From contig JAIXPZ010000025.1 of NCBI GenBank assembly GCA_027486005.1, positions 1 to 52,471 on the forward strand: a stretch of DNA of 52,471 nt, given 5' to 3'. The DNA comes from Legionellales bacterium. GTDB lineage: Bacteria; Pseudomonadota; Gammaproteobacteria; JAGOUN01. Shown here piece after piece: positions 10,885-36,337 of this stretch. The notes under the pieces were generated by a model that was not told the origin of the DNA, ran no database searches, and saw only the letters and a program-made list of their open reading frames with translations. A program made the position numbers and the translations under genes. Numbering within the stretch: the stretch's first letter is position 1; each line of letters begins with the position of its first letter.

Positions 10885-12036
10885 TTAATCGATTTTTGAG
10901 GGAATCAGTTGAATTTTTGTTAACCATGGAATCAATGAGCGTATTTCAAGACCGTTAGGGTAAGTTTTTTCACGCGTAAGTGTTTTCACTAGTTGTAGAT
11001 ATTGTGCTGATTCAAAATAGGGGGCGAAATGATTAAATCCTTTTGCAGGGGTGTCGTCAGAAGATTTCACTTCGATCAGATGAGTAATTTTATTATCAAT
11101 GTTGATTAAAAAATCTAATTCTTTACCATCTTTAGTGCGTAAAAAATTCAGCGAGGTTTCTACGCCTTGTGTATCTTCAAGATAATGTAATTCTTTTAAT
11201 ATAGCGCATGCGGTTATATTTTCTAAGCGTGCACCTAGGTCTTCTGCTTGTGTAAAATCATAAAAATAAAATTTAGGTTCTTTTAATAAGGAGCGTGCAA
11301 TTTTTTCTGAATAGGGTGTGACTCTAAAAATAATATATAGGTTCTCGAGCAATATTAGCCAGCGTTTTATAGTGTTAGGGTCACTTTCTAAGTCGCGTGC
11401 CAAACTGCTGTAGGAAACGGTACTACCAATTCTTTGTTTAAGTAAAAGTACGAGTGTTTCAATTGCTTTAATATCACGCACTGCATGTAAATCAATTAAA
11501 TCTTGTCGTAAAATAATATCAAGGTGGCTTTTTCTCCAACGACGATAAAAAATAGGATTGCCATTAAGAAAAGGCTCTGGAAAGCCGCTGCACTTCCATA
11601 AACGATCAAAAATCACTTCTGCAGTTTCATTTGGGAAGATAGATTGCGCAATGGCCTCTTTAAGGTCCAAAGGGTGCAAGCGATATTGAAAGTATCTGCC
11701 TGCCAAGGAATCACCTACTTTGCGATATGTGTCTAACTTGGCGCTTCCGGTGACTAATAAAGGGGGTGAAATTCCCTCGGTGTCATAAATACCCTTTAAC
11801 CAACGTTTCCATTGGTGCATTTTATGTAGCTCATCGAAAATAATGAGGTCTTTTTTTCTGTCCCAGCTTTTCTTGCGCAAGATAAGCCGATCTTCCGCCG
11901 AATCATAATTGAGATAGTCGGCGGTTGGGCGTAATTGCTTAGCGAGTGTTGTTTTTCCACACTGTCTTGGGCCCGTGAGCAAGACGATTTTGCTGGGAAA
12001 ATCGGCTAAAATATGTGTTTGTAGGTATCGTTTCAT
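10885..12036 (-). CDS. AAA ATPase with DUF4143 (archaeal-type ATPase/nuclease-like fold)
   Basis: The 383-residue protein has an N-terminal AAA domain with Walker A GPRQCGKTT (about 22-30), Walker B LIIFDELHKMH (about 64-74) and the sensor VTGSAKLDT. The middle contains a winged-helix-like segment. The C-terminal DUF4143 region holds DFLINIDNKITHLIEVKSSD, with the Asp and ExK pattern of a PD-(D/E)XK nuclease-like fold. This family is common and mobile in prokaryotes; its role is poorly known. A second member lies at 36334-37488 and a remnant of a third at 12292-12462. An unusual inverted repeat begins 3 bases upstream of its start codon. Confidence 0.85.
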   Translation of the reverse strand: MKRYLQTHILADFPSKIVLLTGPRQCGKTTLAKQLRPTADYLNYDSAEDRLILRKKSWDRKKDLIIFDELHKMHQWKRWLKGIYDTEGISPPLLVTGSAKLDTYRKVGDSLAGRYFQYRLHPLDLKEAIAQSIFPNETAEVIFDRLWKCSGFPEPFLNGNPIFYRRWRKSHLDIILRQDLIDLHAVRDIKAIETLVLLLKQRIGSTVSYSSLARDLESDPNTIKRWLILLENLYIIFRVTPYSEKIARSLLKEPKFYFYDFTQAEDLGARLENITACAILKELHYLEDTQGVETSLNFLRTKDGKELDFLINIDNKITHLIEVKSSDDTPAKGFNHFAPYFESAQYLQLVKTLTREKTYPNGLEIRSLIPWLTKIQLIPSKID

Positions 12037-14350: not shown

Positions 14351-14379
14351 CTCGCGCTCGTTCTTACCCGGTGAGTGCA

Positions 14380-15789
14380 ATGTTTCGACACGATCTAAAT
14401 AGAGATTACCAATCCCTTTTTCGTTTTTTTTTATTTTGCTTTGACATTGCTTTGGTGGTTTTCGGAGGGGTGTTAGCGCATTACGTCCGCTTCCAGCACG
14501 CAGCAATTGATTATCGTTATTGGCAGGTTTTGGGTTTGGCCTTAGTTGTATCTTTGGTGATTTTTCGTTGGTGTGGTTTATACAAACCATTAAGAGAAAA
14601 ACGTTTACTATCGTATTTATTGCAAGGCACCTTTGCGATTTTTTTAGTATTTAGTGTGCTTAGTGTATTTGGCGTGCTGAGCAAGAGTAGTGTGCACTAC
14701 TCACGTTTGTGGGTGGGATACTGGCTTTTTTTTCTTTGGGCGGGATTTGTTTGTTCACGCTTATTTGTTTATGCGCTATTATCTTACTTGCGTTATAAGG
14801 GAGTGAATGCAAAGCGCATTATTGTGATTGGCGTCAATGCGCGCGCGCAAGCCCTGGTGAAAACTTTATGCCATACGGCATGGTCGGGTGTTAAACCTGT
14901 ATTGTTTTTTGCAGAATCAGAAATTCATGAAAAATTTTTCTTGAATATTCCAGTTGAAACATTTGAATTATCACGCTTGCGTGAATTTGTGCATAGTCTT
15001 TTAGTTGACGAAGTATGGATTGTTTTGCCTTTGCGTGAAGAAATGCTTATTAAAAGCATTGCAGAAAATTTAATGCATGAAGTTGTTGCGGTGCGTTACG
15101 TCCCTGATTTTATGGGTTTATCTTTCCGGCGTCATACTATGACAGAGATTTCTGGTTATCCGCTTATTAATTTGTATGCAACACCTATGGAGGGTGGTAG
15201 GCGTTGGTTGAAAGCTATTGAGGATCGTAGTTTGGCGTTGTTATTTTTATTAATAGCATCACCATTAATATTATTCATTAGTTTGTTAATTAAGATCACT
15301 TCACCCGGCCCGGTTTTCTTTAAGCAACAACGTCATGGTTGGAATGGAAAAAAATTTATGGTTTATAAATTTAGATCCATGGTTGTGCATCAAGAGCAAG
15401 TTGGCGTAGTTTCTCAGGCAATCAAAAATGATAGTCGTATCACAAAAATTGGGCGCATTTTGCGCCGTACAAGTTTTGATGAATTACCGCAACTATTGAA
15501 TGTGTTGCAAGGCGATATGTCTATTGTTGGTCCAAGACCGCATGCTGTTGAGCATAATGAATATTACAAAGATTTAATAGAATCCTATATGCAACGTTTT
15601 AAAGTAAAGCCAGGCATTACAGGATGGGCGCAAGTTAATGGTTACCGCGGAGAAACTGATACTTTAGAGAAAATGCAACGTCGTGTGGAATATGATCTGT
15701 TTTATATCGAAAACTGGACGCTGTTATTTGACATTCGAATTGTATTTTTAACTTTGTGGCGCGGATTTTTTCATCGCAATGCGTATTGA
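14380..15789 (+). CDS. Polyprenyl-phosphate sugar-1-phosphate transferase (WcaJ/WbaP-type)
   Basis: This inner-membrane enzyme starts a glycan by moving a sugar-1-phosphate from UDP-sugar to undecaprenyl phosphate. The N-terminal third has about four hydrophobic segments, then a Rossmann-like CoA-binding-type region (RIIVIGVNARAQ), then another membrane helix (LALLFLLIASPLILFISLLI). The C-terminal sugar transferase domain carries the hallmarks FMVYKFRSM, TSFDELPQLLNVLQGDMS, IVGPRPHAVEHNEYY and KPGITGWAQVNGYRGET. I prefer the ATG at 14380, which has GGTGAG 6 bases upstream, over the GTG at 14371. It is followed at 19 bases by sat-cysC. Confidence 0.9.
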   Translation: MFRHDLNRDYQSLFRFFLFCFDIALVVFGGVLAHYVRFQHAAIDYRYWQVLGLALVVSLVIFRWCGLYKPLREKRLLSYLLQGTFAIFLVFSVLSVFGVLSKSSVHYSRLWVGYWLFFLWAGFVCSRLFVYALLSYLRYKGVNAKRIIVIGVNARAQALVKTLCHTAWSGVKPVLFFAESEIHEKFFLNIPVETFELSRLREFVHSLLVDEVWIVLPLREEMLIKSIAENLMHEVVAVRYVPDFMGLSFRRHTMTEISGYPLINLYATPMEGGRRWLKAIEDRSLALLFLLIASPLILFISLLIKITSPGPVFFKQQRHGWNGKKFMVYKFRSMVVHQEQVGVVSQAIKNDSRITKIGRILRRTSFDELPQLLNVLQGDMSIVGPRPHAVEHNEYYKDLIESYMQRFKVKPGITGWAQVNGYRGETDTLEKMQRRVEYDLFYIENWTLLFDIRIVFLTLWRGFFHRNAY

Positions 15790-15808: not shown

Positions 15809-17443
15809 ATGCAAGATTTTTTTTTAACACCAAGGCAGCGTTGTGATATTGAATGTTTATTGAACGGAGCTTTTGCGCCTTTAAATAGTTTTTGTGATCA
15901 AAAAACTTATGAAAGCATTCTTGCGCATCGTCGTCTACCAAGCGGCGAAGTGTGGCCGATGCCAATTACCTTGGATGTTTCTCGAGCTCAGGCAGAGTCT
16001 ATTGCTCTTGGCGAAGTGATTGGTTTACACGATCACGAAGGAATGCATTTAGCGAATATGACAATCACTGATATTTGGGAGCCGAATAAAATAGCGGAAG
16101 CCAAAGCGGTTTTTGGCACAACTGATGAGACGCATCCTGGTGTTGATTATCTGATGAATACTGCAGGTGATATTTATTTGAGCGGTGATTTGGAGAAAGT
16201 AACCTCACCTGGTCATTATGATTTTACGCATTTGCGATTATCACCAGTGGAACTTAAGCAGCATTTCAAAGCAAATGGCTGGAAGAAAGTGGTTGCCTTT
16301 CAGACAAGAAACCCAATGCATCGCGCGCACCAAGAATTAACATTGCGCGCAGCCAAAGAACATGACGCGCATTTATTAATTCACCCCGTGGTTGGCATGA
16401 CTAAACCAGGAGATGTTGATCATTATACTCGCGTGCATTGTTATCAAAGTATTTTAAAGTCTTATCCTGAAAATACAGCAACATTGAGCTTGTTGCCTAT
16501 CGCCATGCGCATGGCGGGTCCGATAGAAGCATTGTGGCATGCGTTAATTCGTAAAAATTATGGTTGTACGCATTTTATTGTCGGGCGTGATCACGCTGGG
16601 CCAGGCAAAGATAAAAATGGCCAAGATTTTTATGGGTCTTATGATGCGCAAGAGATGGTTCGCCAATATCAAGATGAAATTGGCATTCAAATGGTGCCTT
16701 TCTATGAACTGGTTTATGTGCAAGAACGAGATGCTTATCTTCAGGAAGATGAAATTGAGCCAGGTGAAAATGTGTTAAAAATTTCCGGAACAGAATTTCG
16801 TCGCATGCTGAAAACAGGTGAAGAAGTTCCTGCATGGTTTTCTTACCCGGGAGTTATCCATGAGTTGCGAAAAACCTTTCCTGCAAAAGAAAAGCAAGGC
16901 TTGACTATATTTTTCACGGGTTTATCAGGCGCAGGTAAATCTACTATTGCAAATGCTTTGTTAATAAAACTGATGGAATTAACAGATCGTTCCGTTTCAT
17001 TATTAGATGGCGATTTAGTAAGAAAAAATTTATCTAGCGAATTAGGGTTCTCAAAAGAGCATAGGGATCTCAATATTCTGCGCATTGGCTATGTCGCAAG
17101 TGAAATCACTAAGCATGGAGGTATTGCCATTTGTGCGCCAATTGCGCCGTATCGTAATACACGACGCCAAGTGCGTGAGATGGTTTATGAGGCAGGCGCG
17201 TTTATTGAAGTCTATGTTTCTACATCGCTGGCAGTATGTGAAAGCCGCGATCGAAAAGGGCTTTATAAAAAAGCACGCCAAGGAATTATCAAAGAATTTA
17301 CTGGCATTAGTGATCCTTATGAGGTGCCAGAAAAAGCAGAAGTTGTGATAAATACATCAGAGCACTCGGTTGAACAAGAAGTAGCAATAATTGTGAATAA
17401 ATTAATAGAGCTTAGATATTTAACGGAAAGAGCCAGTCACTAA
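15809..17443 (+). CDS. Bifunctional ATP sulfurylase / APS kinase (PAPS synthase)
   Basis: The 544-residue fusion makes PAPS, the universal sulfate donor, in two steps. Residues 1 to about 360 are ATP sulfurylase, with QTRNPMHRAH (165-174) and GRDHAGPGKD (259-268) as the nucleotide-binding motifs. Residues about 364-544 are APS kinase, with P-loop GLSGAGKST (371-379), the LLDGDLVRKNL segment and a DPYEVPEKAE tail. The order Sat-CysC matches fungal and some bacterial PAPS synthases and differs from CysN-CysC. AGAGGG upstream is the ribosome site. It overlaps cysQ by one base (TAATG). No PAPS reductase genes are near, so the PAPS probably serves sulfation. Confidence 0.95.
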   Translation: MQDFFLTPRQRCDIECLLNGAFAPLNSFCDQKTYESILAHRRLPSGEVWPMPITLDVSRAQAESIALGEVIGLHDHEGMHLANMTITDIWEPNKIAEAKAVFGTTDETHPGVDYLMNTAGDIYLSGDLEKVTSPGHYDFTHLRLSPVELKQHFKANGWKKVVAFQTRNPMHRAHQELTLRAAKEHDAHLLIHPVVGMTKPGDVDHYTRVHCYQSILKSYPENTATLSLLPIAMRMAGPIEALWHALIRKNYGCTHFIVGRDHAGPGKDKNGQDFYGSYDAQEMVRQYQDEIGIQMVPFYELVYVQERDAYLQEDEIEPGENVLKISGTEFRRMLKTGEEVPAWFSYPGVIHELRKTFPAKEKQGLTIFFTGLSGAGKSTIANALLIKLMELTDRSVSLLDGDLVRKNLSSELGFSKEHRDLNILRIGYVASEITKHGGIAICAPIAPYRNTRRQVREMVYEAGAFIEVYVSTSLAVCESRDRKGLYKKARQGIIKEFTGISDPYEVPEKAEVVINTSEHSVEQEVAIIVNKLIELRYLTERASH

Positions 17444-18240
17444 TGTTGTTAACGACTACTTTTTTAAATGCTGTTATAGATATCGCGCATCAAGCCGGCG
17501 AAAAAATTATGTCTGTATATAGCCAGCAAGCTACTGACATTAATATCATGCAAAAAGAAGATGGATCGCCTTTAACTAAAGCTGATTTACTTGCCCATCA
17601 AACTATTATTGATGGATTAAAATTATTGACGCCTGATATTCCAGTATTATCAGAAGAATCTAGTGAAATAGAATACGCTCAACGACATCAGTGGCCGCAG
17701 CTTTGGATGGTGGATCCTTTGGATGGGACTAAAGAGTTTATTCACCGCACAGATGAATTTACAGTCAATATCGCCTTGATTATTAATTACCGCCCAATGT
17801 TGGGGGTTGTGTTTGCGCCTGCTTTGGGCGTGACTTATTTTGCGATGGATGGCCATGGCGCTTACAAAAAATTTGCAGATAAATCGCAACGTATTTCAGC
17901 GCGTTTTCCTATTACGCTGCCATATCAAGTGGTTGCAAGTCGTCGACATGGCGGCGAAGCTTTGGAAAAATTCTTGCAACAACTTCCTGATCATGTATTA
18001 GTGAATGCGGGCAGCGCGCTGAAAATCTGCTTGGTCGCCGAAGGCGTAGCTGATTTTTATCCACGACTTGGCCCTACGAGCGAGTGGGACACCGCTGCGG
18101 GTCATGCGATTATCAACAATGCAAATGGACTCATTTATGACTCACAAATGCACCCGCTTTGTTATAATGCGAGAAAAAGCTTATTGAATGGCTCATTCGT
18201 AGTCAGTCATAAAGACGCGCCGCAGTTTGTGCTTTTTTAA
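17443..18240 (+). CDS. cysQ: 3'(2'),5'-bisphosphate nucleotidase CysQ
   Basis: CysQ hydrolyses PAP, the by-product of sulfotransferase reactions, to AMP and phosphate and so keeps PAPS use flowing. The 265-residue protein has the inositol-phosphatase fold signatures EESSEIEY (metal ligand Glu), VDPLDGTKEFIHR and GPTSEWDTAAGHAI. Its start overlaps the sat-cysC stop, showing coupled synthesis of PAPS-making and PAP-removing enzymes. Its last four bases overlap the convergent toxin gene. Confidence 0.94.
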   Translation: MLLTTTFLNAVIDIAHQAGEKIMSVYSQQATDINIMQKEDGSPLTKADLLAHQTIIDGLKLLTPDIPVLSEESSEIEYAQRHQWPQLWMVDPLDGTKEFIHRTDEFTVNIALIINYRPMLGVVFAPALGVTYFAMDGHGAYKKFADKSQRISARFPITLPYQVVASRRHGGEALEKFLQQLPDHVLVNAGSALKICLVAEGVADFYPRLGPTSEWDTAAGHAIINNANGLIYDSQMHPLCYNARKSLLNGSFVVSHKDAPQFVLF

Positions 18241-18867: not shown

Positions 18868-18954
18868 TTCATAGAATGACAAAGTAAGGCTCGCCTTTTT
18901 AACTTTAATCAGTATAAAATCACGTCTCTTTAAAAAAATTTATCAAGGATGCGA

Positions 18955-20367
18955 GTGATTATTCCCGTTATATTGTCTGGTGGTTCTGGTACGCGCTTGT
19001 GGCCAAGTTCCCGTGCTTTGTATCCTAAGCAACTGTTAGCGCTGGCTTCAGAATACAGTATGTTGCAAGAAACAGTGCTTAGGTTGTCTGGTTTTGAAGG
19101 AGTTTCTGCTCCTATCGTTATTTGTAATCAAGAGCACCGTTTTATTATTGCGGAGCAACTGCAACAAATTGGCATTTCAAATGCCCGACTAATTTTAGAG
19201 CCAGAGCCAAAAAATACTGCACCCGCAGCGCTTATAGCCGCACTTTATGCGCAGCAGGAGTATGGCGAAGATGTTACATTGTTGGTGTTACCTGCGGACC
19301 ACTTGATTCGTGATGTTGCTAGTTTCCAACAAGCGGTTGATGTTGCGGTTGCAATTGCAAAGCAAGGATACTTGGTGACGTTTGGTGTAAAACCTCTACA
19401 TCCAGAGACCGGATACGGATATATCCGATATGGTGAGTCGCTAGCAAATCAGGTTTATTCTGTGGATAGCTTTGTTGAGAAGCCGAATGAAATAAAAGCA
19501 AAAGAATATCTTTTGGCAGGAAATTATTTATGGAATAGCGGTATGTTTGTATTTCTCGCAGCTGAATATCAAAGGGAAATGCAACAATACGCACCAGCAA
19601 TTACCTCTGCTTGTCAGTTAGCTTTGAGATCCGCTCGCAGCGATTTAGATTTTGTAAGATTAGATGGTGAAGCTTTTGCACTATGTCCTTCAGACTCTAT
19701 TGACTATGCTGTTATGGAAAAAACAAAAAAAGCTGCAGTTGTTTCGTTGAATGCGGAATGGAGCGATTTAGGTTCCTGGTCGTCTTTATGGGAGGTAATG
19801 CCAAAAGACAAAAATGACAATGTATTGGTGGGTGATGTGTTGACGCACAATGTGACAGATTGTTATATACGTGCGGAACATAAATTAGTTGCCGCTGTTG
19901 GAATAAAAAACCATGTCATTATTGAGACAGATGATGCCATTTTGGTCGTTGATAAAAATAACACACAAGATGTAAAAGAGATTGTAAAAAATTTACAACT
20001 GCAAAAACGCTTTGAACATCATGCGCATAGCATTGTTTATAGGCCTTGGGGAAGTTATCAATCTTTAGACATGGGAAAAAATTTTCAAGTGAAACGAATT
20101 TGCGTTAAGCCTGGCGCTAAACTTTCTTTACAAATGCACTATCATCGTGCAGAGCATTGGATTGTTGTTAAGGGGACTGCGAAAGTCGTGCGCGGCGAAG
20201 ACAGTTTTATTTTAACAGAAAATCAATCGACATACATTTCTATTGGCCAGAAACATCGGCTAGAAAATCCCACGTTACTGCCTTTAGAGATCATTGAAGT
20301 GCAGTCTGGTAATTACTTGGGTGAGGATGATATCGTGAGATTTGAAGATGATTATCAAAGAAAATAG
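18955..20367 (+). CDS. manC: Mannose-1-phosphate guanylyltransferase / mannose-6-phosphate isomerase
   Basis: ManC makes GDP-mannose for glycans; the C-terminal cupin domain isomerises fructose-6-phosphate to mannose-6-phosphate. The N-terminal nucleotidyltransferase motif is VILSGGSGTRLWPSSR followed by YPKQ, with FVEKPNE further on. The type II isomerase domain shows RPWGSYQSL and QMHYHRAEHWIVVKGTA. I prefer the GTG at 18955 (MIIPVILSGG, as in homologues), 5 bases after AAGGA, over the ATG at 18949, which overlaps that ribosome site. TATAAA at 18913-18918 may be a -10 box. The 3' end overlaps the ABC permease gene. Confidence 0.93.
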   Translation: MIIPVILSGGSGTRLWPSSRALYPKQLLALASEYSMLQETVLRLSGFEGVSAPIVICNQEHRFIIAEQLQQIGISNARLILEPEPKNTAPAALIAALYAQQEYGEDVTLLVLPADHLIRDVASFQQAVDVAVAIAKQGYLVTFGVKPLHPETGYGYIRYGESLANQVYSVDSFVEKPNEIKAKEYLLAGNYLWNSGMFVFLAAEYQREMQQYAPAITSACQLALRSARSDLDFVRLDGEAFALCPSDSIDYAVMEKTKKAAVVSLNAEWSDLGSWSSLWEVMPKDKNDNVLVGDVLTHNVTDCYIRAEHKLVAAVGIKNHVIIETDDAILVVDKNNTQDVKEIVKNLQLQKRFEHHAHSIVYRPWGSYQSLDMGKNFQVKRICVKPGAKLSLQMHYHRAEHWIVVKGTAKVVRGEDSFILTENQSTYISIGQKHRLENPTLLPLEIIEVQSGNYLGEDDIVRFEDDYQRK

Positions 20368-21175
20368 TGAATCTGAAGAGTCAGCAATTTCGGGGCATCA
20401 ACGTCATCGCGCAAAATGGCGTCACTACTGGGAGTTGCTGTGGTTTAAGACGTATATGGATTTAAAAATTGAAACCCAAATTACTTATTTGGGTTTCTTT
20501 TGGTGGTTTTTGGAGCCAGTTTTTTTTCTATTTATTTATTATTATATTTTTGCAATCATTTTAAAAACACGAACACCTTACTTTATCGAATTTCTATTTG
20601 TAGGGGTTGTTGCTTGGCGTTGGTTTGCGCCAGCAATGAGCCGTTCTTGCCGCTCTATCAAGTCACAGGCAAGATTAATGCGTGAAATTTACGTTTCTAA
20701 ATTGATATTTCCCGCTAGCGTGGTATTAAATGATGCATTTAAATTTGTAATTATTTTTTTTATATTGCTAACTTTTTTGGCGGTTTTTCATAATAAACCA
20801 AACTTATTGTGGCTTGCCGTTGTGCCTAACTTTATTTGCCAGCTGACTATTATTTTTGGTTATAGTTTTTGTTTCGCTGCAGTGACTCCGTTTATCCCTG
20901 ACTTTCCTCTTGTTATACAAACATTCACATTTGCTTTGATGATGGTTTCAGGTATTTTTTTTGATGTGTTAGCAGCTCCGCCACATTTGGCTTATATATT
21001 GCAACTTAATCCTATCGCCGATGTATTGATTAATTATCGCCTGCCTTTAATTAACCATCACTCTCCGCAGTGGGGGTATATGTTGTATACGTTTGTTTTT
21101 GGCTGCGTTCTGAATATTATTGGAATTTATTCCATCCGAAGAAATGAACGCATTTTTTCTAAGGTTTGCGCATAG
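20348..21175 (+). CDS. ABC-2 type polysaccharide export permease (Wzm/KpsM-like)
   Basis: The 275-residue inner-membrane protein has an amphipathic N-terminal segment (YWELLWFKTYMDLKIE) and about six hydrophobic segments typical of the ABC-2 polysaccharide exporter family. LGFFWWFLEPVFFLFIYYYI and the segment FDVLAAPPHLAYILQLNPIA are characteristic. It pairs with the downstream ATPase to export a lipid-linked glycan across the inner membrane. The ATG at 20348 lies inside the manC 3' end (20-base overlap). An in-frame TTG at 20342 is less likely. Its stop overlaps the ATPase GTG start. Confidence 0.9.
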   Translation: MIIKENSESEESAISGHQRHRAKWRHYWELLWFKTYMDLKIETQITYLGFFWWFLEPVFFLFIYYYIFAIILKTRTPYFIEFLFVGVVAWRWFAPAMSRSCRSIKSQARLMREIYVSKLIFPASVVLNDAFKFVIIFFILLTFLAVFHNKPNLLWLAVVPNFICQLTIIFGYSFCFAAVTPFIPDFPLVIQTFTFALMMVSGIFFDVLAAPPHLAYILQLNPIADVLINYRLPLINHHSPQWGYMLYTFVFGCVLNIIGIYSIRRNERIFSKVCA

Positions 21176-21828
21176 TGAGCGAAATCATTGTTTCTTTAAA
21201 AAATGTAGGCTTGTGTTATAAAAAGCGCTTTTCACTTAAAAAAAGAAAGTCTACTACTTATTGGGCGCTGCAAGATATCAATTTGGAAATTTTTCATGGC
21301 CAATCTATTGGTATTTGCGGGCGAAATGGCGCTGGTAAATCGACATTGCTTAGAGTATTAGCGGGCATAGTTTCCCCTAGCAGAGGGATGATTACTATTG
21401 CTGAAGGGGTTCGTTCAGGATTATTGACGTTGCAATCAGGATTCAATCCTTATTTGAATGGAGCGGATAACGCCATTTTAAAAGGCTTATATATGGGCAT
21501 GAAGAAAGAATATATTCAAAGTAAAATGAACGAAATTATAGAGCTTTCAGGTCTAGGCGTTGCTTTTTATAATTCTATAGAAACATATTCCTCCGGAATG
21601 GCGGCTCGTTTAGGTTTTGCGGTTAATTATTTTTGTATGCCGGATTTGTTGCTTATTGATGAAACGCTCAGTGTTGGTGACAAGCAGTTTAAACAAAAAT
21701 CAAAGTTGCTTATTCGGGAGCTTATTCAATCCAATAAAACTGTGGTCATTGTGAGTCATGATGAAGATGCTTTGGCTTCTTTGACAAGCAAGGTTTACAC
21801 TTTAGAAAATGGAATATTAACTTCTTAG
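21175..21828 (+). CDS. Polysaccharide export ABC ATPase (Wzt/KpsT-like, short form)
   Basis: The 217-residue ATPase has Walker A GRNGAGKST, the signature YSSGMAARL, Walker B LLLIDE and the switch His in VSHDEDAL, with the Y/WALQDINLEI start of the polysaccharide ABC family. The GTG at 21175 overlaps the permease stop by one base. It lacks the C-terminal carbohydrate-binding domain of O9-type Wzt, so it resembles KpsT or the short Wzt forms. Export would then not depend on recognising a terminal cap in this protein. Confidence 0.92.
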   Translation: MSEIIVSLKNVGLCYKKRFSLKKRKSTTYWALQDINLEIFHGQSIGICGRNGAGKSTLLRVLAGIVSPSRGMITIAEGVRSGLLTLQSGFNPYLNGADNAILKGLYMGMKKEYIQSKMNEIIELSGLGVAFYNSIETYSSGMAARLGFAVNYFCMPDLLLIDETLSVGDKQFKQKSKLLIRELIQSNKTVVIVSHDEDALASLTSKVYTLENGILTS

Positions 21829-22187: not shown

Positions 22188-22229
22188 CAATAGCGGCTGA
22201 AGCCCTTCTCCCTCCGTGATACTCTGCAG

Positions 22230-22631
22230 ACACATATTTGCGTAGGATATGGTCAATTAGAATTGCATCGGCCTCTTGTAGGGGCGAGTGGCGCTCGCCC
22301 TGTCTAACCTCGCATTGTCTTTTCTATTAGAATAAAAACAACGAATCCTTTTTCCAAGTTTATGGATTATTGATCGTATAGGCACGTAATTTTTCTAATG
22401 CTTTAATGAATAATGAAACACTGAATCGTGAATCACGAAAATGCAAAATCGTAGGAAGGAAGGCTATCATTATAAGATAACGTTAATTTAACAACAGGAA
22501 GAAAGCGCCGTCATCTTAATATAAAGGTTAATGCAAGGCAAATTTAGATAGGGCGAGCGCCACTCGCCCCTACAAGAGGCCGATGCAATTTTCATTGAGC
22601 ATATCCTGCGCAAAGATGTGCCTGCAGAGTG
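22230..22631. mobile_element. MITE-like element with long inverted arms
   Basis: The segment 22230-22317 and the reverse complement of about 22530-22631 are nearly the same: both contain ACTCTGCAG, GGATATG, ATTGCATCGGCCTCTTGTAG and GGGGCGAGTGGCGCTCGCCC in the same order, with scattered differences. They flank about 210 bases in which I see no gene. Each arm also has its own internal hairpin (GGGCGAG/CTCGCCC). The roughly 400-base size, long arms and no coding sequence fit a miniature inverted-repeat element, or two inverted copies of one short repeat. Together with the sequences before it this accounts for the 0.9 kb gap 21829-22732. Confidence 0.6.
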
Positions 22632-22732
22632 GCTCAGGGGTAGGGGAGTAATGTCATTATAGATGCAAATAATCAATTGATATTATGTGCGTTTCTGCAA
22701 TAACCTGAGCTAGCTTTTGTTCAAAAACTTGT

Positions 22733-23785
22733 TTATGTTTTCCTATAAAAGCGAAACTTATAAAGTTTTCTCTTTAAGCTTGAATGTATTCTTTGTAAAA
22801 GCGGTGTTTCCCTTTCAATATCTAATTGGCCTTGTAAGCTTATTCGAATTTTTTCTAGTTGGTAATGGCTTGCTAATAATTCATTTGAAAATATTTTTCT
22901 TTTTTCAGGATAAAGTGTGGGGAATTTTGAATTTAATATCTGCTGTGGCGACATGTTATTGATACCCAAATGATCAAGTACACTGTCACACTCTTTTTCT
23001 ACGCTTTCTAGCCACTCAATTTCTTCAGTGCTATATTTTTTTAACTCAGGAGTAATTTTTATTTTTTGGTAATCTGATATTTCATTTTTATTTAAGCCAG
23101 TAGTTGACGCTATTTTTTCTATAAAATTATCAAAATTTTCTACTATATCTTTTTCAAATTCTATTACCGTATGAGCGTGATGACGTGCAAATTGCTCACT
23201 CAATTTTGAGATAAAATAATGTAGGTGATAAGAAGAAGTGCTGGTGTCAATAATAAAAGGGAAGAATTCGTCAAGAGAAATGGCTAGTTGCACAAGTCCA
23301 TAAGCATTAAATTGAAACATGTCTCTTTCATATTCCTTTGGAAGATGTGCTCGAGAGGATTTCCAAGAGTCACGAGTATTTCTTTTTATATTAATAATTT
23401 TTGCATCAGGAAAGTTTTTTGCTATCCATGGCAATCTAAAGTCAATTCTATTGAGCTTTATAGCAACCTGTCTGTCATCTTTTTTCTGAGTTAAATAATG
23501 AAGATAGTTTTTTAATGGCTCATGAGACTCGTTCTCTTGAAGAGCCAATCTTTCGAAAGCAAATGTTGAGGAATAAAAGCGATTCAAGTCAGTAAGCGAG
23601 TGATATTCTTCCCAATAATTACTAACGCCGTTATGTTGTTTTTTTGGAACAATGTATTGAATGCTCTCTAGTAATCCTTCGTGCAGAGCCTCATAGTATG
23701 CGCAATAATGCTTTGACCAATTAAAGAAATTCCACAAAAAAGTGGTTCCAGAGCAAAAGCGGCCGGTTATAAAGATAGGATTCAT
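22733..23785 (-). CDS. Sulfotransferase family protein
   Basis: Sulfotransferases move a sulfuryl group from PAPS to a hydroxyl. The N-terminal IFITGRFCSGTTFLWNFF (4-21) is the 5'-phosphosulfate loop, and IINIKRNTRDSWKSSRAHL (about residues 130-150) is the 3'-phosphate loop with the expected Arg and Ser. Most of the rest is not recognisable, and the C-terminal 70 residues are basic and helical. The 350-residue protein is AT-rich in codon use compared with flanking genes. Its ATG overlaps the stop of the upstream fusion gene (ATGA). The acceptor is unknown; a sugar of the locus glycan is the natural guess. Confidence 0.78.
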   Translation of the reverse strand: MNPIFITGRFCSGTTFLWNFFNWSKHYCAYYEALHEGLLESIQYIVPKKQHNGVSNYWEEYHSLTDLNRFYSSTFAFERLALQENESHEPLKNYLHYLTQKKDDRQVAIKLNRIDFRLPWIAKNFPDAKIINIKRNTRDSWKSSRAHLPKEYERDMFQFNAYGLVQLAISLDEFFPFIIDTSTSSYHLHYFISKLSEQFARHHAHTVIEFEKDIVENFDNFIEKIASTTGLNKNEISDYQKIKITPELKKYSTEEIEWLESVEKECDSVLDHLGINNMSPQQILNSKFPTLYPEKRKIFSNELLASHYQLEKIRISLQGQLDIERETPLLQRIHSSLKRKLYKFRFYRKT

Positions 23786-25293
23786 AATGTGTAGCCATAT
23801 TGTTGTAAAAAATTATGTAACTGACTTAAGATTTCTGGATGCAGTTTTTCTATAATTTCATTTTTGCTGATTTCAGGTTTTTCATATGTTACGCCAATGT
23901 ATTTTTTATTGGCGTTCATTATGGTATTGCATGATAAGTTAAAGTCATGTGGTATATTGTTGATTAAGTTTTTTTCTAATAGAAATTGAACGAGCTTTTC
24001 GTGGTCATGCTCTATTCTGAAGACAAGATCAGGTTTGCGATTACAGATTAGTTTATTCCAAGCAAGGTAGCTTAGTGCTGCTAAATTGATTTCATTGTCT
24101 TTTTTTGGTTTTTCTGGAAGATCTATGTTCAATAATTTTATCAAGTGCCTTCGCCTGAAAAAATAGGAGTCATTATTTCGAGAACATTGATTTTCAAGAA
24201 TGATAGAGGGTATTGCGGAAAATGGATCTCGTAAAACATGAATGATATTGGCAAAATAGTAGCGATTAATGCCGCCAGATTTTTTTTTATTCCCAATGTC
24301 ACCCCATGGGTAATCAGTGTCTTCAACAGCAAGCATCCAAGAGCTGACTCCATTGATACCTATTTTTTCATGCCCAACGTCCAAGCCAAGTTTCGTAAGT
24401 AAAAAACTGGCATAGCTTGAACCGCAGCGTGGATGAGATAAGCAGAGCACTTCTTTGTATTCTTTTTTCACAGCTACATTTTTTTGTCGCATTTTATCTT
24501 GGGCATCTATACCTTTTGGGCGAATTTCCGAGTAAAATTTTATCTTCCCTTGAGAAGAAGATAGTTCATAAACGGGAATAGGTTTAATGGTGAAATGTTG
24601 TATTTCTGAGTGTTGTTCTATGATTTGCTTATGAATATAAACATCTGAAGTGTGATTAATAACATGAATGTTTTTTAATAGTATTTCTGCCATAGCAGTA
24701 TTGATAGCGAAACATGGATTAGACATAGTTTTTTCTTGTGTAAAACGATGGCGTTGCCATATTTTTTTTGAGTGAGTTTTTTTCTCAAATGCTTTTGCTA
24801 ATCGAATAAGTAGCGGGCGTTTTTTGTCAATTCTATATTTTTTCAATGATTCTGGAGAAAATAAACTGGTTATGCTTTCGTTAAAATGATAAGTAAATTT
24901 TAGGTCATCTTCACAAATCAAACAGAAGGCATATTTGTTGTCTACCATATCCTTCCAAACTTTAATGAATGAACACCAATTGGCAATTTGCTGAGGGATA
25001 AGAAAGTTGTTGACGCAGTGACAGCGATTTTTTCCGCAACGAAAACAAGGAGGAAATTGTGCGATTTTTCCTGATTTTATCCATTGTAAAACTTGTGGGT
25101 CATCTTTATCGGCTGCTTCAATGAATTCGTAATGTTTAATGCCTACGCGTGCAAACTCTTTAATTGTATGAAGTCTTCTATCGGCGCATTTTTTTAAATT
25201 GACGACATAGACATGATTGAATATTTCACAGAAGTCGTTTTTTTTAGAGGGAAACAGAAAGCTAATGATTTTCAAGAGCATTTTATGGGGCAT
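23782..25293 (-). CDS. GT25 glycosyltransferase - sulfotransferase fusion
   Basis: This 503-residue protein appears to be two enzymes in one chain. Residues about 25-250 resemble glycosyltransferase family 25 (LPS galactosyltransferase type): VYVVNLKKCADRRLHTIKEF (28-47), the EFIEAADKDD segment and the acidic CLICEDDLKF (124-133) with the metal-binding EDD. A CxxCxxxxCxC cluster (Cys83, 86, 91, 93) interrupts it. Residues about 282-503 start with LCLSHPRCGSSYASFLL (284-300), a PAPS-type P-loop, and IIHVLRDPFSAIPSII (350-365) fits the 3'-phosphate motif. It might add a sugar and sulfate it. It lies 4 bases after the next sulfotransferase gene and overlaps the following one. Domain calls are by motif only. 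Confidence 0.7.
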   Translation of the reverse strand: MPHKMLLKIISFLFPSKKNDFCEIFNHVYVVNLKKCADRRLHTIKEFARVGIKHYEFIEAADKDDPQVLQWIKSGKIAQFPPCFRCGKNRCHCVNNFLIPQQIANWCSFIKVWKDMVDNKYAFCLICEDDLKFTYHFNESITSLFSPESLKKYRIDKKRPLLIRLAKAFEKKTHSKKIWQRHRFTQEKTMSNPCFAINTAMAEILLKNIHVINHTSDVYIHKQIIEQHSEIQHFTIKPIPVYELSSSQGKIKFYSEIRPKGIDAQDKMRQKNVAVKKEYKEVLCLSHPRCGSSYASFLLTKLGLDVGHEKIGINGVSSWMLAVEDTDYPWGDIGNKKKSGGINRYYFANIIHVLRDPFSAIPSIILENQCSRNNDSYFFRRRHLIKLLNIDLPEKPKKDNEINLAALSYLAWNKLICNRKPDLVFRIEHDHEKLVQFLLEKNLINNIPHDFNLSCNTIMNANKKYIGVTYEKPEISKNEIIEKLHPEILSQLHNFLQQYGYTL

Positions 25294-25297
25294 AAAA

Positions 25298-26212
25298 CTA
25301 TTTTCCGTGATCTTTGTAAATCAAATGACATAGTTGTTGTTTAGCTTTTATAAGCTTCGCTTGGTAGTTGTTTAAAATATAAGAATAAAGTTGAATATCA
25401 TCCTGGCAATTTTTTTCCAAAAACGCTAGCGTTGCTTTGCTAGGAGTGGCTTTTTCGTTTTCTGCGCTTGGATTCACAATGCGGTTTTCTACTCTGGGTC
25501 GCTGTAGTACATCGGCCAACATGTTGGCGAGTTCATGAGTTTTATTATAAGGGACGACAGCAAGATAACTATGATCAAAACTCTTTTTGGCTTTTTCAAG
25601 CAGATTGGGTGAGTCGTGGCAGCGTGTTAGCTGTGAACAGATACCATTTTTTATTTTAGGGCTATTTTTTGAAATTAATATATCAATAAACTGATCAAAA
25701 TTATTATTTTTAATGCCTTCATTATATGCATTATGGCCGGGTCTGGTTCTTAAATAGCGAAAAAAAGATTCCAGCCTATCGACAGGATGGCGCACGGAGG
25801 CGATATAAAGTGGTTTTTTGCGAAAATAGGGAAAAATTTCTAGGGGAATTATGCTATTTGACCATTTTGTTTTGGGAAAAACTTTTGCCAATGGAGTGCC
25901 ATACCAAAGATGTCCAGAAAGTAGTTTGGTATCAGATAAGTGTTTGCTAAGCTCTGGATAGCGAGTATTTTTTTTTGTTTTAACTGGTTTACAAGATCTC
26001 GCATCAAACACATGCTTATCACCTAACAGTGTGCGTAAGTGCCGCACTAATGTGCTTCCCCCACATTTTTCTACATGCGTATGTATAAAAACATGTCGAT
26101 TAAAAAATTTTTCCTGTGGTGAGGGCACGTGTAGTTTCCTGTTATCTATTGGTTTGGGTAAAATGCTTGCATACATTGTTAAACCGCGCATTCTACTTAA
26201 ATAAGTTCGCAT
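25298..26212 (-). CDS. Sulfotransferase (Sulfotransfer_2 / HS2ST-like)
   Basis: The 304-residue protein carries FIHTHVEKCGGSTLVRHL near residues 41-58, the form of the phosphosulfate loop (HxxKxGGSTL) found in carbohydrate sulfotransferases of the Sulfotransfer_2 family. The 3'-phosphate motif is IASVRHPVDRLESFFRYL. A SGHLWYG segment between them also fits the family. Members sulfate sugars, including heparan and chondroitin in animals. The start is uncertain: the ATG at 26212 has a weak ribosome site, and later in-frame ATGs exist before the P-loop. It is the first gene of the three-gene minus-strand sulfotransferase operon. Confidence 0.8.
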   Translation of the reverse strand: MRTYLSRMRGLTMYASILPKPIDNRKLHVPSPQEKFFNRHVFIHTHVEKCGGSTLVRHLRTLLGDKHVFDARSCKPVKTKKNTRYPELSKHLSDTKLLSGHLWYGTPLAKVFPKTKWSNSIIPLEIFPYFRKKPLYIASVRHPVDRLESFFRYLRTRPGHNAYNEGIKNNNFDQFIDILISKNSPKIKNGICSQLTRCHDSPNLLEKAKKSFDHSYLAVVPYNKTHELANMLADVLQRPRVENRIVNPSAENEKATPSKATLAFLEKNCQDDIQLYSYILNNYQAKLIKAKQQLCHLIYKDHGK

Positions 26213-26263: not shown

Positions 26264-26290
26264 GGTTGCTCTTTGGCATAAGGAGTGGTT

Positions 26291-27595
26291 GTGAGTAAGA
26301 AATTACATATTTGCATTGATGGGTTAAATTTGTCCTTAATGAAGCCAACAGGCATTGCCACTTATGCTCGAAATCTTGGCGCTCGTCTACATGATATGGA
26401 TTTTAAAGTCAGTGTTTTATTTGATAAAAGACTGGATGAAAGGGCTCCTGAAATACTGTATGAGTCCACTTTCTACGAAGCAATTAACAAACATTCTGAG
26501 AAAGAGCGGAGACCGCGACAGAGTTTTACACATTACGCTTTGATTCCTTTTTATTTCTTAAAGAGCATTTCTTACTTCATTAGGTCTCCATTGGCCAAGG
26601 AACATACATTTTCTGGCGTTGTTGAGCAAGAAGGCATGAAAACCAGGCTCCCTGTTTTTGATACTATGTATAATAGTTGGGGCATATATCGATTAGCGCA
26701 GTGCTATTTTTTGATGTTTGGAAAATTATTACCGATACGATTGCATCCGACTCCTGATGTTATGCACTGGACCTGCCCAATTCCTGCGCGCGTTGTCGGC
26801 GCTAAAAATTATTACACGATACATGACATCATTCCGTTGCGGCTGCCATATGCGACTCAAGATAATAAAAAACTTTTTTATGATATGTTGTTGAAAATCG
26901 TAAAATCTTCTGACAAATTGGTCACTGTTTCTGAGTTTTCCAAAAAAGATATTGTCACTCATCTTAAGGTTGCTCAGGAGAAAGTGATTAATACTTATCA
27001 AGACGTGTGTTTGTCAGATGATTGGTCGTCAGATAAAATATCTTTTTCGATTAACCAACTGCAAGCACAATTTGGTGTGTCTTCTCAGGAATATTTTTTG
27101 TTTGTCGGAGCGATTGAGCCAAAGAAAAACGTGGTGCGTTTATTGGAAGCATTTTTAAGCGCTAATGTAGAGCAAAAGTTGATTGTTGTTGGACCATTGG
27201 CGTGGCTTTCTAGTAAAGAAAATGTATTGCTTCAGCAGTATCAAGAACGTGTCATTTATTTGAGTTACGTTTCAAGTGATACACTCAACGTTTTGTTGCG
27301 ACATGCGCGGGCATTAATTTTTCCTTCTCTTTTTGAGGGCTTTGGCTTGCCGGTAATGGAGGCGATGTCGGTGGGGCTGCCTGTGATTACTTCAACTATT
27401 AGTAGTCTTCCTGAAATTGCAGGGGGGGCAGCCTATTTAGTCAATCCTTATAAGGTTGATGAAATTGCAGCAGCTATTTATCTTTTGTCAAAGGATGATG
27501 GATTGTGTGCATCACTTTCCGCAAAAGGCAAAGAGCGTACAAAATTTTTTAGCAGCAAAGCCTATGTTGAGCGTCTCAGGTCGGTTTATAACTAA
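26291..27595 (+). CDS. GT4 family glycosyltransferase
   Basis: This 434-residue GT-B enzyme is likely a cytoplasmic retaining glycosyltransferase that adds one sugar to the lipid-linked glycan. The N-terminus has DGLNLSLMKPTGIATYARNL, the acceptor-side glycine turn. The C-terminal domain has FVGAIEPKKNVVRLLEAF and the nucleotide-sugar signature SLFEGFGLPVMEAMSVGLPV (about 346-365), then SSLPEIAGGAA. I choose the GTG at 26291, 5 bases after AAGGAG, rather than the GTG at 26285 that lies inside that ribosome site. It ends 20 bases inside the convergent GT4 gene. Confidence 0.88.
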   Translation: MSKKLHICIDGLNLSLMKPTGIATYARNLGARLHDMDFKVSVLFDKRLDERAPEILYESTFYEAINKHSEKERRPRQSFTHYALIPFYFLKSISYFIRSPLAKEHTFSGVVEQEGMKTRLPVFDTMYNSWGIYRLAQCYFLMFGKLLPIRLHPTPDVMHWTCPIPARVVGAKNYYTIHDIIPLRLPYATQDNKKLFYDMLLKIVKSSDKLVTVSEFSKKDIVTHLKVAQEKVINTYQDVCLSDDWSSDKISFSINQLQAQFGVSSQEYFLFVGAIEPKKNVVRLLEAFLSANVEQKLIVVGPLAWLSSKENVLLQQYQERVIYLSYVSSDTLNVLLRHARALIFPSLFEGFGLPVMEAMSVGLPVITSTISSLPEIAGGAAYLVNPYKVDEIAAAIYLLSKDDGLCASLSAKGKERTKFFSSKAYVERLRSVYN

Positions 27596-28757
27596 TTTGG
27601 TGATAAGCCTCATATAGTTTTTTCACAGAACTATCCCACGAGAATTTTTTTGCTTGTGCTAATGAACGTTGTACTTGGTCGGCGTATGCTGCATCGTCGG
27701 CGGTGAGAAATTTTTCCATCGCTATGGCGATAGCAGATTCGTTTAGCGGGTCTATTAATATACCGGCGTCCCCACATACTTCTGGAAGGCTGCTGACATT
27801 AGAGGTAATTACTGGGACGCCTGATTGCATTGCTTCTAACACAGGAAGTCCAAAACCTTCGTATAATGAAGGATAGATAAATGTTTTGGCGGCGGAGTAA
27901 AGATGAAAAAGTATTTTTTCATCTACGTAACGTAATAATAAAATAGTCGATGAGTGACTTTCATTGATTAGAGTTAACAGTTCTTCGTATAACCATCCTT
28001 TGTTGCCCACTAAAACCAATGGATATTCTTTTTGAAGATTGTCGGGAAGAGTTTGGTAAGCTTTAATCAATCGAATAAGATTTTTGCGTGGTTCAAGCGT
28101 AGCAACACAAAGCAAAAATTGCTTATAACCTAATGAAAATTTTTCTAGAGAAGCTTGTACTTCGCTTGCAGGTCTGGGCATAAAATCTTCTTTGACTCCC
28201 GGGGGAACAATATGTATTTTATTTTCAGGAATATTAAGTAATGCAACTATTTGATCTTTAATAAACTGGCACATAACAATTAATGCATCTGCTTCTTTTA
28301 TATCACGTCGCATTTGCTGCTGCAGAAATTTTGCACGACCTTTGGGAAGAAATTCTGGATAAATAAACATCGAAACATCGTATGTCGTTAAGACTTTAAG
28401 CCCATCATGCGGAAGAAATACAAAGTTAGGCTCGTGATAAATGTAGTCTTTGGTCAGCTTTCTGAGCTTAAAATAATGACGACAATTATATTGCCATTGG
28501 ATGATGGTGCGTGCAAAAGCAAACTGATTAATTATTTCAATGAGCGCCACTTTCCATACAGGAGCTTTTTTTGGCGCTTCAGTAAATTGAGAGCATACTT
28601 CAAGAATTTCTTGCTTAGACAGTAAGGTATTGTGACGGCAAGCAATAATTTCTACATCCGGATAGTAATGAATCATCGCCAAAACCATGTTTTGTGTGTA
28701 ATACCCTATACCTGTCATTGGCGCGCGAATACAGTCAAGATTATAGATAATTTTCAT
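27576..28757 (-). CDS. GT4 family glycosyltransferase
   Basis: The 393-residue enzyme is a relative of the neighbouring GT4 at 26291. It begins [20 protein letters not shown], with [19 protein letters not shown] and [20 protein letters not shown] plus [16 protein letters not shown] in the donor-binding domain. I start it at the ATG at 28757. The open frame continues to 28883, but those residues do not resemble the family. The GTxx-Glu signature EGFGLPVLE contains both catalytic-type glutamates. It converges on the other GT4 with a 20-base overlap of the 3' ends. Substrates are unknown. Confidence 0.88.
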
Positions 28758-28874
28758 GTGGCTGAGTTTGTATATTGAGATGACCCAGGATAAACACCTC
28801 GTGGAATATTGTCTAGTATGTGTCGCACAAAGTGAAGCTGAGCTTGTTTCGGCTGGCCTTGCGCCTAAAATCTC

Positions 28875-28903
28875 TTGTCGCAACTTCTTTGCTTAGGTAA
28901 GAT
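28875..28903 (+). promoter_or_regulatory. Candidate promoter for the WbaZ-like glycosyltransferase
   Basis: TTGTCG (28875-28880) and TAAGAT (28898-28903) are 17 bases apart, about 30 bases upstream of the ATG at 28934, which also has an AAAGGA ribosome site. Confidence 0.4.
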
Positions 28904-28933
28904 CGAGCCCTCTTTCTAAAAAGGATTCCCTAA

Positions 28934-30055
28934 ATGAAAACTGCCATCGTTGTCGATTGGCTGGTGGTTTACGCTGGTGCGGAGCGTGTCATTGAGCAAA
29001 TGATTGCGTGTTTCCCAGGCGCGGATGTATTTGCGGTGGTTGATTTTTTGCCAGAAGAACAACGGGCTTTTTTGCAAGGTAAAACAGTCATCACTACTAT
29101 GATACAGCGATTACCATTTGCTAAACGTTGGTATAGGCATTATCTGCCATTAATGCCCTTGGCAATTGAGCAACTGGATTTATCTGCATATGACCTGGTC
29201 TTATCCAGTTCACATGCGGTAGCGAAAGGCGTCATCACCGGCCCGGATCAACTACATATTAGTTATGTGCATTCGCCTATGCGTTATGCTTGGGATTTGC
29301 AGCACCAATATTTACAGGAATCCAATTTAGACCAGGGATTAAAGTCATGGATAACGCGTTACTTATTACATCGTTTGCGATTATGGGATTATGCTAGCGC
29401 AGCCAGAGTAGACGAATTTTTGTGTAACTCACATTATATTGCCCGGCGCATTGAGCGTGTGTATAGACGATCAGCCGCCGTTATTTATCCGCCAGTCAAT
29501 ATAGAAAACTGCATTTTTTCAGCACAAAAAGAAAATTTTTATGTGACAGCTTCACGTATGGTGCCTTATAAAAAGATGCCATTGATTGCTCAAGCGTTTA
29601 AAGCGATGCCAGAAAAACGTTTAGTGATGATTGGTGATGGCCCAGAGTTAGAGCGGGTGCAGGCAGTGGGGGCGGATAATGTCGAGATTCTAGGCTATCA
29701 GGAAACGTCGTCATTAATGAGTTATTTATCTAGGGCGCGAGCTTTTGTGTTTGCAGGAATGGAAGATTTTGGTATTACTTTGGTTGAAGCGCTAGCCTGT
29801 GGCACGCCAGTTATTGCGTTTGGCCAAGGAGGCGCTACAGAAATAGTACAGGATGGCAGTAAAGGATCTGCTGCAAACGGCGTGCTTTATTCGCAGCAAA
29901 CAGTTGCAGCAATTATTGATGCTGTGCAGCGTTTTGAGCAAACTTCTTTTTGTGCAGAAGCTTGTGCAGAAAGTGCGAAAAAATTTAGTGTTAATCAGTT
30001 CACAGAACAATTAAGAGATTTTGTCAGTCATGCAGTACAAAAAAAGCTCCATTAA
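28934..30055 (+). CDS. GT4 glycosyltransferase, WbaZ/mannosyltransferase-like
   Basis: The 373-residue GT-B enzyme begins TAIVVDWLVVYAGAERVIEQ, a pattern of O-antigen mannosyltransferases. YVHSPMRYAWDLQHQYL (about residues 111-127) is a further hallmark of this group, which uses GDP-mannose. The donor domain has YVTASRMVPYKKMPLIAQAF and the FGITLVEALACGTPVIAFG signature. ManC in the same locus could supply GDP-mannose, so mannose transfer is plausible but not proven. The 3' end overlaps the next gene by 26 bases. Confidence 0.85.
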   Translation: MKTAIVVDWLVVYAGAERVIEQMIACFPGADVFAVVDFLPEEQRAFLQGKTVITTMIQRLPFAKRWYRHYLPLMPLAIEQLDLSAYDLVLSSSHAVAKGVITGPDQLHISYVHSPMRYAWDLQHQYLQESNLDQGLKSWITRYLLHRLRLWDYASAARVDEFLCNSHYIARRIERVYRRSAAVIYPPVNIENCIFSAQKENFYVTASRMVPYKKMPLIAQAFKAMPEKRLVMIGDGPELERVQAVGADNVEILGYQETSSLMSYLSRARAFVFAGMEDFGITLVEALACGTPVIAFGQGGATEIVQDGSKGSAANGVLYSQQTVAAIIDAVQRFEQTSFCAEACAESAKKFSVNQFTEQLRDFVSHAVQKKLH

Positions 30056-35804: not shown

Positions 35805-36337
35805 GAGATTTTTCCTGTAAGCGTTTGAACGAATGCCAATAAATCATTATAAACTGGCAGGGTTGATGCGTCAGTTATCCTGGTGTTGCTGCCATTTCCT
35901 GAGCGTACTAAAACAGGCTGACAATGTGCGGCAATTGCCGCATCAATATCACGCTGCGAGTCACCCACAAAATACGTGTCTTCTGGTGCGATATTGAAAT
36001 ACTGCATAGCTTGAAGTAGTAATCCGGGCTTAGGCTTTCTGCACTCACAGTGATCATTGGGCCCGTGGGGGCAATAGAAAATTCTATCAATATATCCTTG
36101 ATGTGCCATTAGTTCATGTGCCATTTTTTGATGAATAGCATCAAGCGTAATTTCTGAAAATAAACCACGGGCAATACCAGATTGATTGCTGGCGATCGCG
36201 ACTGAAATATTAGCGTGATTCATTAATGCAATGGCTTCTAGGCTTCCCGGGATAGCGTGCCATTCTTCTGGAGATTTAACGAAATCAGGGGAGTCTTCAT
36301 TGATGACGCCGTCGCGATCGAGGATGATGAGTTTCAT
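35801..36337 (-). CDS. gmhB: D-glycero-beta-D-manno-heptose-1,7-bisphosphate 7-phosphatase
   Basis: GmhB is a HAD phosphatase in ADP-heptose synthesis for the LPS inner core. The 178-residue protein has the catalytic Asp pair in LDRDGVINED (Asp7 and Asp9), VAIASNQSGIARG, the zinc loop CPHGPNDHCECRKPKPG and FVGDSQRDIDAA. It overlaps plsC by 4 bases and the AAA ATPase gene upstream by 4 bases. It implies a heptose-containing LPS core. Confidence 0.93.
   Translation of the reverse strand: MKLIILDRDGVINEDSPDFVKSPEEWHAIPGSLEAIALMNHANISVAIASNQSGIARGLFSEITLDAIHQKMAHELMAHQGYIDRIFYCPHGPNDHCECRKPKPGLLLQAMQYFNIAPEDTYFVGDSQRDIDAAIAAHCQPVLVRSGNGSNTRITDASTLPVYNDLLAFVQTLTGKIS

Follow-up and report, generated by a model that had tools for sequence, protein, structure and literature searches.

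Can a single bacterial gene provide both the transfer of a sugar and its sulfation? The question is raised by an open reading frame within the window (the whole stretch of 52,471 nucleotides analysed here), for which the original prediction proposed an unusual protein with a family 25 glycosyltransferase (GT25) in the first half and a PAPS-type sulfotransferase in the second half of one 503-residue chain.

Organization of the fusion gene

The chain and all the motifs quoted for it were found in one uninterrupted frame of 503 codons, running from an ATG at 25293 to 23782 on the minus strand, which the original prediction left unstated. These motifs are VVNLKKCADRR, EDD at residues 128-130, HPRCGSS at residues 287-293, RDP from residue 355, and the cysteines C83, C86, C91 and C93. 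Codon-position composition is alike in the two halves of the frame. The gene is the middle one of a three-gene sulfotransferase operon, in which the upstream gene stops 4 bases before the ATG of the fusion gene, whose stop in turn shares bases with the start codon of the gene that follows (ATGA). The features of the operon are as follows:

25298..26212, minus strand: upstream gene, Sulfotransfer_2 family, 304 aa (PF03567, 33.2 bits, cut-off 22)
23782..25293, minus strand: GT25-sulfotransferase fusion gene, 503 aa
24637..25218, minus strand: GT25 domain, GT-A type glycosyltransferase, residues 26-219 (Pfam PF01755, Foldseek, COLGALT1 profile match)
25015..25047, minus strand: C83-x2-C86-x4-C91-x-C93 cluster, candidate metal site (from sequence)
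24904..24912, minus strand: EDD, conserved acidic motif of GT25, residues 128-130 (invariant in two GT25 alignments, A2 and A9)
24466..24510, minus strand: interdomain linker, roughly residues 262-276; contains an A7 run at codon 270 and, in frame, an ATG (M268)
23785..24468, minus strand: sulfotransferase-fold domain (C-domain), phage-type clade, residues ~276-503 (AlphaFold model, Foldseek, relatives)
24415..24435, minus strand: 5'-phosphosulfate-binding (5'-PSB) loop HPRCGSS, residues 287-293 (R289 and G291 invariant in alignment A4)
24205..24231, minus strand: 3'-phosphate-binding motif (3'-PSB) RDPFSAIPS, R355-x7-S363 (R and S invariant in alignment A4)
22733..23785, minus strand: downstream gene, Sulfotransfer_3 family, 350 aa (PF13469, 40.1 bits, cut-off 27)

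The two domains were modelled separately, which is also the check suggested with the original prediction, because a joint full-length alignment had mis-aligned the halves.

The GT25 half

Only the N-terminal half of the fusion protein is recognised by Pfam, with Glyco_transf_25 (PF01755) at residues 26-219 (E 3.2e-14, 53.7 bits, cut-off 24). The AlphaFold model of this domain, built with 16 sequences, reached pLDDT 70.6 and pTM 0.70, and all 18 of its Foldseek matches at E<=1e-3 were GT25 enzymes, including a bacterial beta-1,4-galactosyltransferase, human COLGALT1 and Mimivirus R655; the match to the COLGALT1 profile had an E-value of 7e-29. The assignment of the first half to GT25 was thus supported both by Pfam and by the structural model. 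With these members of CAZy GT25/Pfam Glyco_transf_25 the domain shares the fold, the NL...RR motif, EDD and D217, but the fusion protein departs from a typical GT25 protein in having no GCxxSH, in an extra C-x2-C-x4-C-x-C cluster and in the attached sulfotransferase domain.

Such departures could mean that the GT25 domain has lost its glycosyltransferase function and serves the sulfotransferase in glycan binding or positioning, with the Cys cluster as a stabilising element. This would be in agreement with the alignment, where ANWCSF replaces GCxxSH and the Cys-rich insertion sits just ahead of it, as well as with the identity of only 17-24% to other GT25 domains. However, the domain retains E128, D129, D130 and D217 as well as NL...RR at its N-terminal end, the Pfam score is far over the cut-off, and the strict GCxxSH, kept by 97 of the 116 other GT25 ORFs, is also missing from about 16% of them, so we consider loss of the transferase function unlikely. 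Since GCxxSH is not universal in GT25, its absence bears on activity and not on family membership.

The Cys cluster, whose sequence makes it a possible metal site, was absent from all 116 other GT25 ORFs fetched, and DNA patterns for the cluster and for the QxANWxSF motif revealed no GT25 relative in IMG/VR. The region around it was modelled at low confidence (pLDDT about 56-66).

The sulfotransferase half

The C-domain gave no Pfam or NCBIfam match, staying below every Sulfotransfer_1/2/3/4 cut-off, and its profile reached sulfotransferases among PDB sequences only at a non-significant E of about 1. Its AlphaFold model reached pLDDT 84.2 and pTM 0.83, and the best 21 PDB matches in Foldseek were all sulfotransferases, with low TM-scores of 0.28-0.46, headed by SULT7A1 with PAP (E 6e-4, probability 1.00) and followed by Teg12, NDST and TPST. 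The proposed PAPS-type sulfotransferase in the second half was therefore supported when this half was modelled on its own. A reading of the domain as a P-loop kinase was also considered and dropped, as kinases and GTPases were present only among lower-ranked matches.

Six residues, R289, G291, H308, E309 (GHE), R355 and S363, are invariant across 24 sequences of the C-domain clade (alignment A4), and they agree with a 5'-PSB loop and a 3'-PSB, with a catalytic base possibly among them. The R-x7-S spacing is the same as in SULT enzymes. The fold, the 5'-PSB loop and R-x7-S are held in common with PAPS-dependent sulfotransferases (SULT7A1, Teg12, NDST, TPST; Pfam Sulfotransfer_1/3/4), and PAPS is supplied by the locus of the fusion. 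On the other hand, the C-domain differs from the known enzymes in being compact (about 230 aa) and in belonging to a divergent clade, below Pfam cut-offs and found mostly in phages. In hhalign, its profile matched neither of the two neighbouring sulfotransferases, nor the sulfotransferase of another GT25 fusion, found in genome G213 and described below.

The clade is small and consists mostly of phage proteins, with 38 loci in IMG/VR and a relative in a Kyanoviridae phage (C48C1; 35%, E 4e-16). As the P-loop and R-x7-S are common to the IMG/VR and Kyanoviridae relatives, the motifs of the C-domain are not a matter of chance. A standalone bacterial relative of 213 aa (L002, genome G122) is above the Pfam Sulfotransfer_4 cut-off, matches the C-domain profile with 99.3% probability and adjoins ORFs that by eye are heptosyltransferase- and Kdo-transferase-like; another relative is a 214-aa protein in G438. 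The C-domain alignment had a sole match among the genome contigs, L066, an apparent fragment of phage DNA that was binned with a Bifidobacterium MAG. Phages carry the clade both as a standalone protein and in chains with unrelated domains. Phage proteins of ~400 aa (L005, L006, L007, L009, L013, L016, L066) combine an N-terminal part with a sulfotransferase of this clade; the N-terminal part weakly resembles a J-domain (LFRKxVxKCHPDK-type motif; two of the proteins match DnaJ at E 0.002-0.004).

A true fusion or a merged frame

Such a chain could also be a sequencing artefact: a single surplus base in the A7 run of codon 270 would be enough to make neighbouring GT25 and sulfotransferase genes read as one. 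Removal of one A would bring the GT25 frame to a TAG stop (codon 273, frame +1) and leave a GTG a few bases further on as a possible start for the second gene. However, a clear Shine-Dalgarno sequence is present neither at this GTG nor at M268, the 19 runs of at least 6 identical bases in the fusion gene all lie in one frame, and a comparable GT25-sulfotransferase fusion exists in G213. Since no clear ribosome-binding site is seen at either internal start, we regard a frame-merging error as very improbable and a true fusion as by far the likelier case. RNA folding of 81 nt of the linker showed nothing above shuffled sequences (z 0.02).

Distribution of the architecture

The architecture is as unusual as originally proposed. 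None of the 116 GT25 ORFs fetched carries the C-domain of the fusion, and only one of them was found to carry a different sulfotransferase domain, with a P-loop and R-x7-S (G213, L177:2410-4125, 572 aa). Single-protein scans of genome contigs and viral contigs with the full 503-aa chain detected no relative, the searches as a whole giving no full-length one, and among the papers covered none contained both 'sulfotransferase' and 'glycosyltransferase family 25'. The G213 protein likewise has GT25 followed by a sulfotransferase-family domain within one chain; it differs in its canonical GCxxSH GT25, in a different, Sulfotransfer_1-like clade, in a long spacer, and in an APS kinase placed on another contig. 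Taken by itself, its second domain scores weakly in Pfam (E 0.034), but L188, a relative with 34% identity, is above the Sulfotransfer_1 cut-off. Standalone relatives of this clade are present on IMG/VR contigs L186-L189. The G213 genome is unrelated to the host studied here and its fusion is independent. In addition, an 892-aa ORF (L040:2627-5302) joins a methyltransferase, a GT2 and a sulfotransferase-like domain of the same clade as our C-domain. From the G213 and L040 fusions it follows that glycosyltransferase-sulfotransferase joining happened more than once. The join described here looks real and rare, built from known families. GT25 domains on IMG/VR contigs were often found fused, for example with GT4 and GT9 (L108) or with a domain resembling 2-oxoglutarate/Fe(II) oxygenases (L145).

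These data bear on whether the two activities would belong together. Both domains could be active on different acceptors or steps, with the fusion fixing only their stoichiometry or location and with the sulfated sugar not being the one added by GT25. The two separate sulfotransferases flanking the fusion gene, together with the occurrence of the C-domain clade alone or beside unrelated domains in phages, would fit such a division of work; yet the recurrence of glycosyltransferase-sulfotransferase joins, in three different combinations, favours linked steps, and we find separate acceptors or steps quite unlikely.

The polysaccharide locus and the PAPS supply

The following genes were found around the operon in the window:

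14371..15789, plus strand: undecaprenyl-phosphate glucose phosphotransferase (WcaJ type), initiating transferase (TIGR03023, 515 bits, cut-off 411)
15809..17443, plus strand: bifunctional ATP sulfurylase/APS kinase (PAPS synthase); no other APS kinase of the genome exceeds the cut-off
17443..18240, plus strand: inositol-monophosphatase family protein, probably CysQ (PAP phosphatase) (PF00459, E 1.2e-48)
18949..20367, plus strand: ManC-type mannose-1-phosphate guanylyltransferase/mannose-6-phosphate isomerase
20342..21828, plus strand: probable ABC-2 polysaccharide exporter (permease 20342-21175, weakly KpsM/Wzm-like; ATPase 21166-21828, PF00005, E 6.2e-19)
26285..30055: three GT4-type glycosyltransferase genes (26285-27595, plus strand; 27576-28883, minus strand; 28934-30055, plus strand)

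The CysQ role is proposed because the gene adjoins the PAPS synthase. PAPS reductase (PF01507) was not found in the host genome, which is 99.74% complete, while the family is present in all 14 control genomes. PAPS is thus left without an assimilatory outlet and most likely serves sulfation, and the locus appears to build a sulfated surface polysaccharide. A similar layout is known from the sulfated capsule locus of Cobetia marina KMM 1449, where ABC export, GDP-mannose genes, PAPS synthesis with cysQ, and sulfotransferases form one cluster (PMC11766843). There, PAPS synthesis proceeds via cysD and a fused cysN/cysC, in contrast to the ATP sulfurylase/APS kinase of our locus, and neither 'GT25' nor 'family 25' occurs in the text of that paper (PMC11766843).

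Other elements were also observed in the window. A palindromic element with 128-nt inverted arms at 22200-22650 is a REP- or MITE-like dispersed repeat with 58 blastn matches in the genome, including long copies on contig C8 and many copies of a ~25-nt core. Two AAA_14/DUF4143 ATPase genes are located at 10885-12036 and 36334-37488.

Comparison with a congener

In the congener G002 the locus is colinear in this region, with 89-96% DNA identity in aligned blocks and with both flanking sulfotransferases present. Positions 23785-25310 of the window correspond to 16 bases in G002, so that exactly the fusion gene is missing. It is an accessory, lineage-variable member of the operon. The low G+C content of the operon (0.33-0.37, compared to 0.41 for the window), taken with the phage relatives of the C-domain, weakly favours a gain in the host lineage over a loss in G002. 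Elsewhere in the locus, G002 (L197:6200-11200, against 17382-17472 of the window) holds ~5 kb of extra genes between the PAPS synthase and the CysQ-like gene, among them ORFs that resemble glycosyltransferases and one whose P-loop reads GKGGSGKS; an ORF that looks similar to the AAA_14/DUF4143 genes lies between its exporter ATPase and the sulfotransferases.

Proposed function and implications

With a probability of roughly two in three, we propose that the fusion protein belongs to a sulfated surface-polysaccharide pathway as an enzyme of two domains: GT25 transfers a hexose and the C-domain sulfates that sugar or its neighbour, as an accessory decoration. The N-terminal domain would transfer the hexose, probably from a UDP-sugar, onto the growing glycan, and the C-terminal domain would then move sulfate to the added sugar or an adjacent one from PAPS, which the ATP sulfurylase-APS kinase of the locus would make. 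The leftover PAP would presumably be cleared by the CysQ-like phosphatase, and the polysaccharide would presumably exit via the ABC-2 exporter. As the gene is accessory and lineage-variable, the enzyme probably adds an extra sulfated decoration. The frame with its two domains, the two folds, the gene content of the locus, the lack of PAPS reductase and the one-gene difference from G002 come directly from the computations, whereas catalysis by each domain, the donor sugar, the acceptor and the coupling of the steps are inferred. A more far-reaching version, in which a single chain adds and sulfates a sugar in two coupled reactions by means of a phage-derived sulfotransferase domain and a new metal site in the Cys cluster, and in which the gain of one gene changes the surface polysaccharide between close relatives, is in our opinion doubtful.

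Sulfated polysaccharides of bacteria attract interest both as products and in the study of the cell surface, yet the sugar on which a given sulfotransferase acts is rarely known. A fused enzyme would couple the sulfation step with a defined sugar-transfer step, which would make the product predictable and testable, and G002, lacking only the fusion gene at this place, represents a ready natural control. Finally, the C-domain clade, mostly phage-borne and not recognised by Pfam, points to a reservoir of sulfotransferases that lack annotation.
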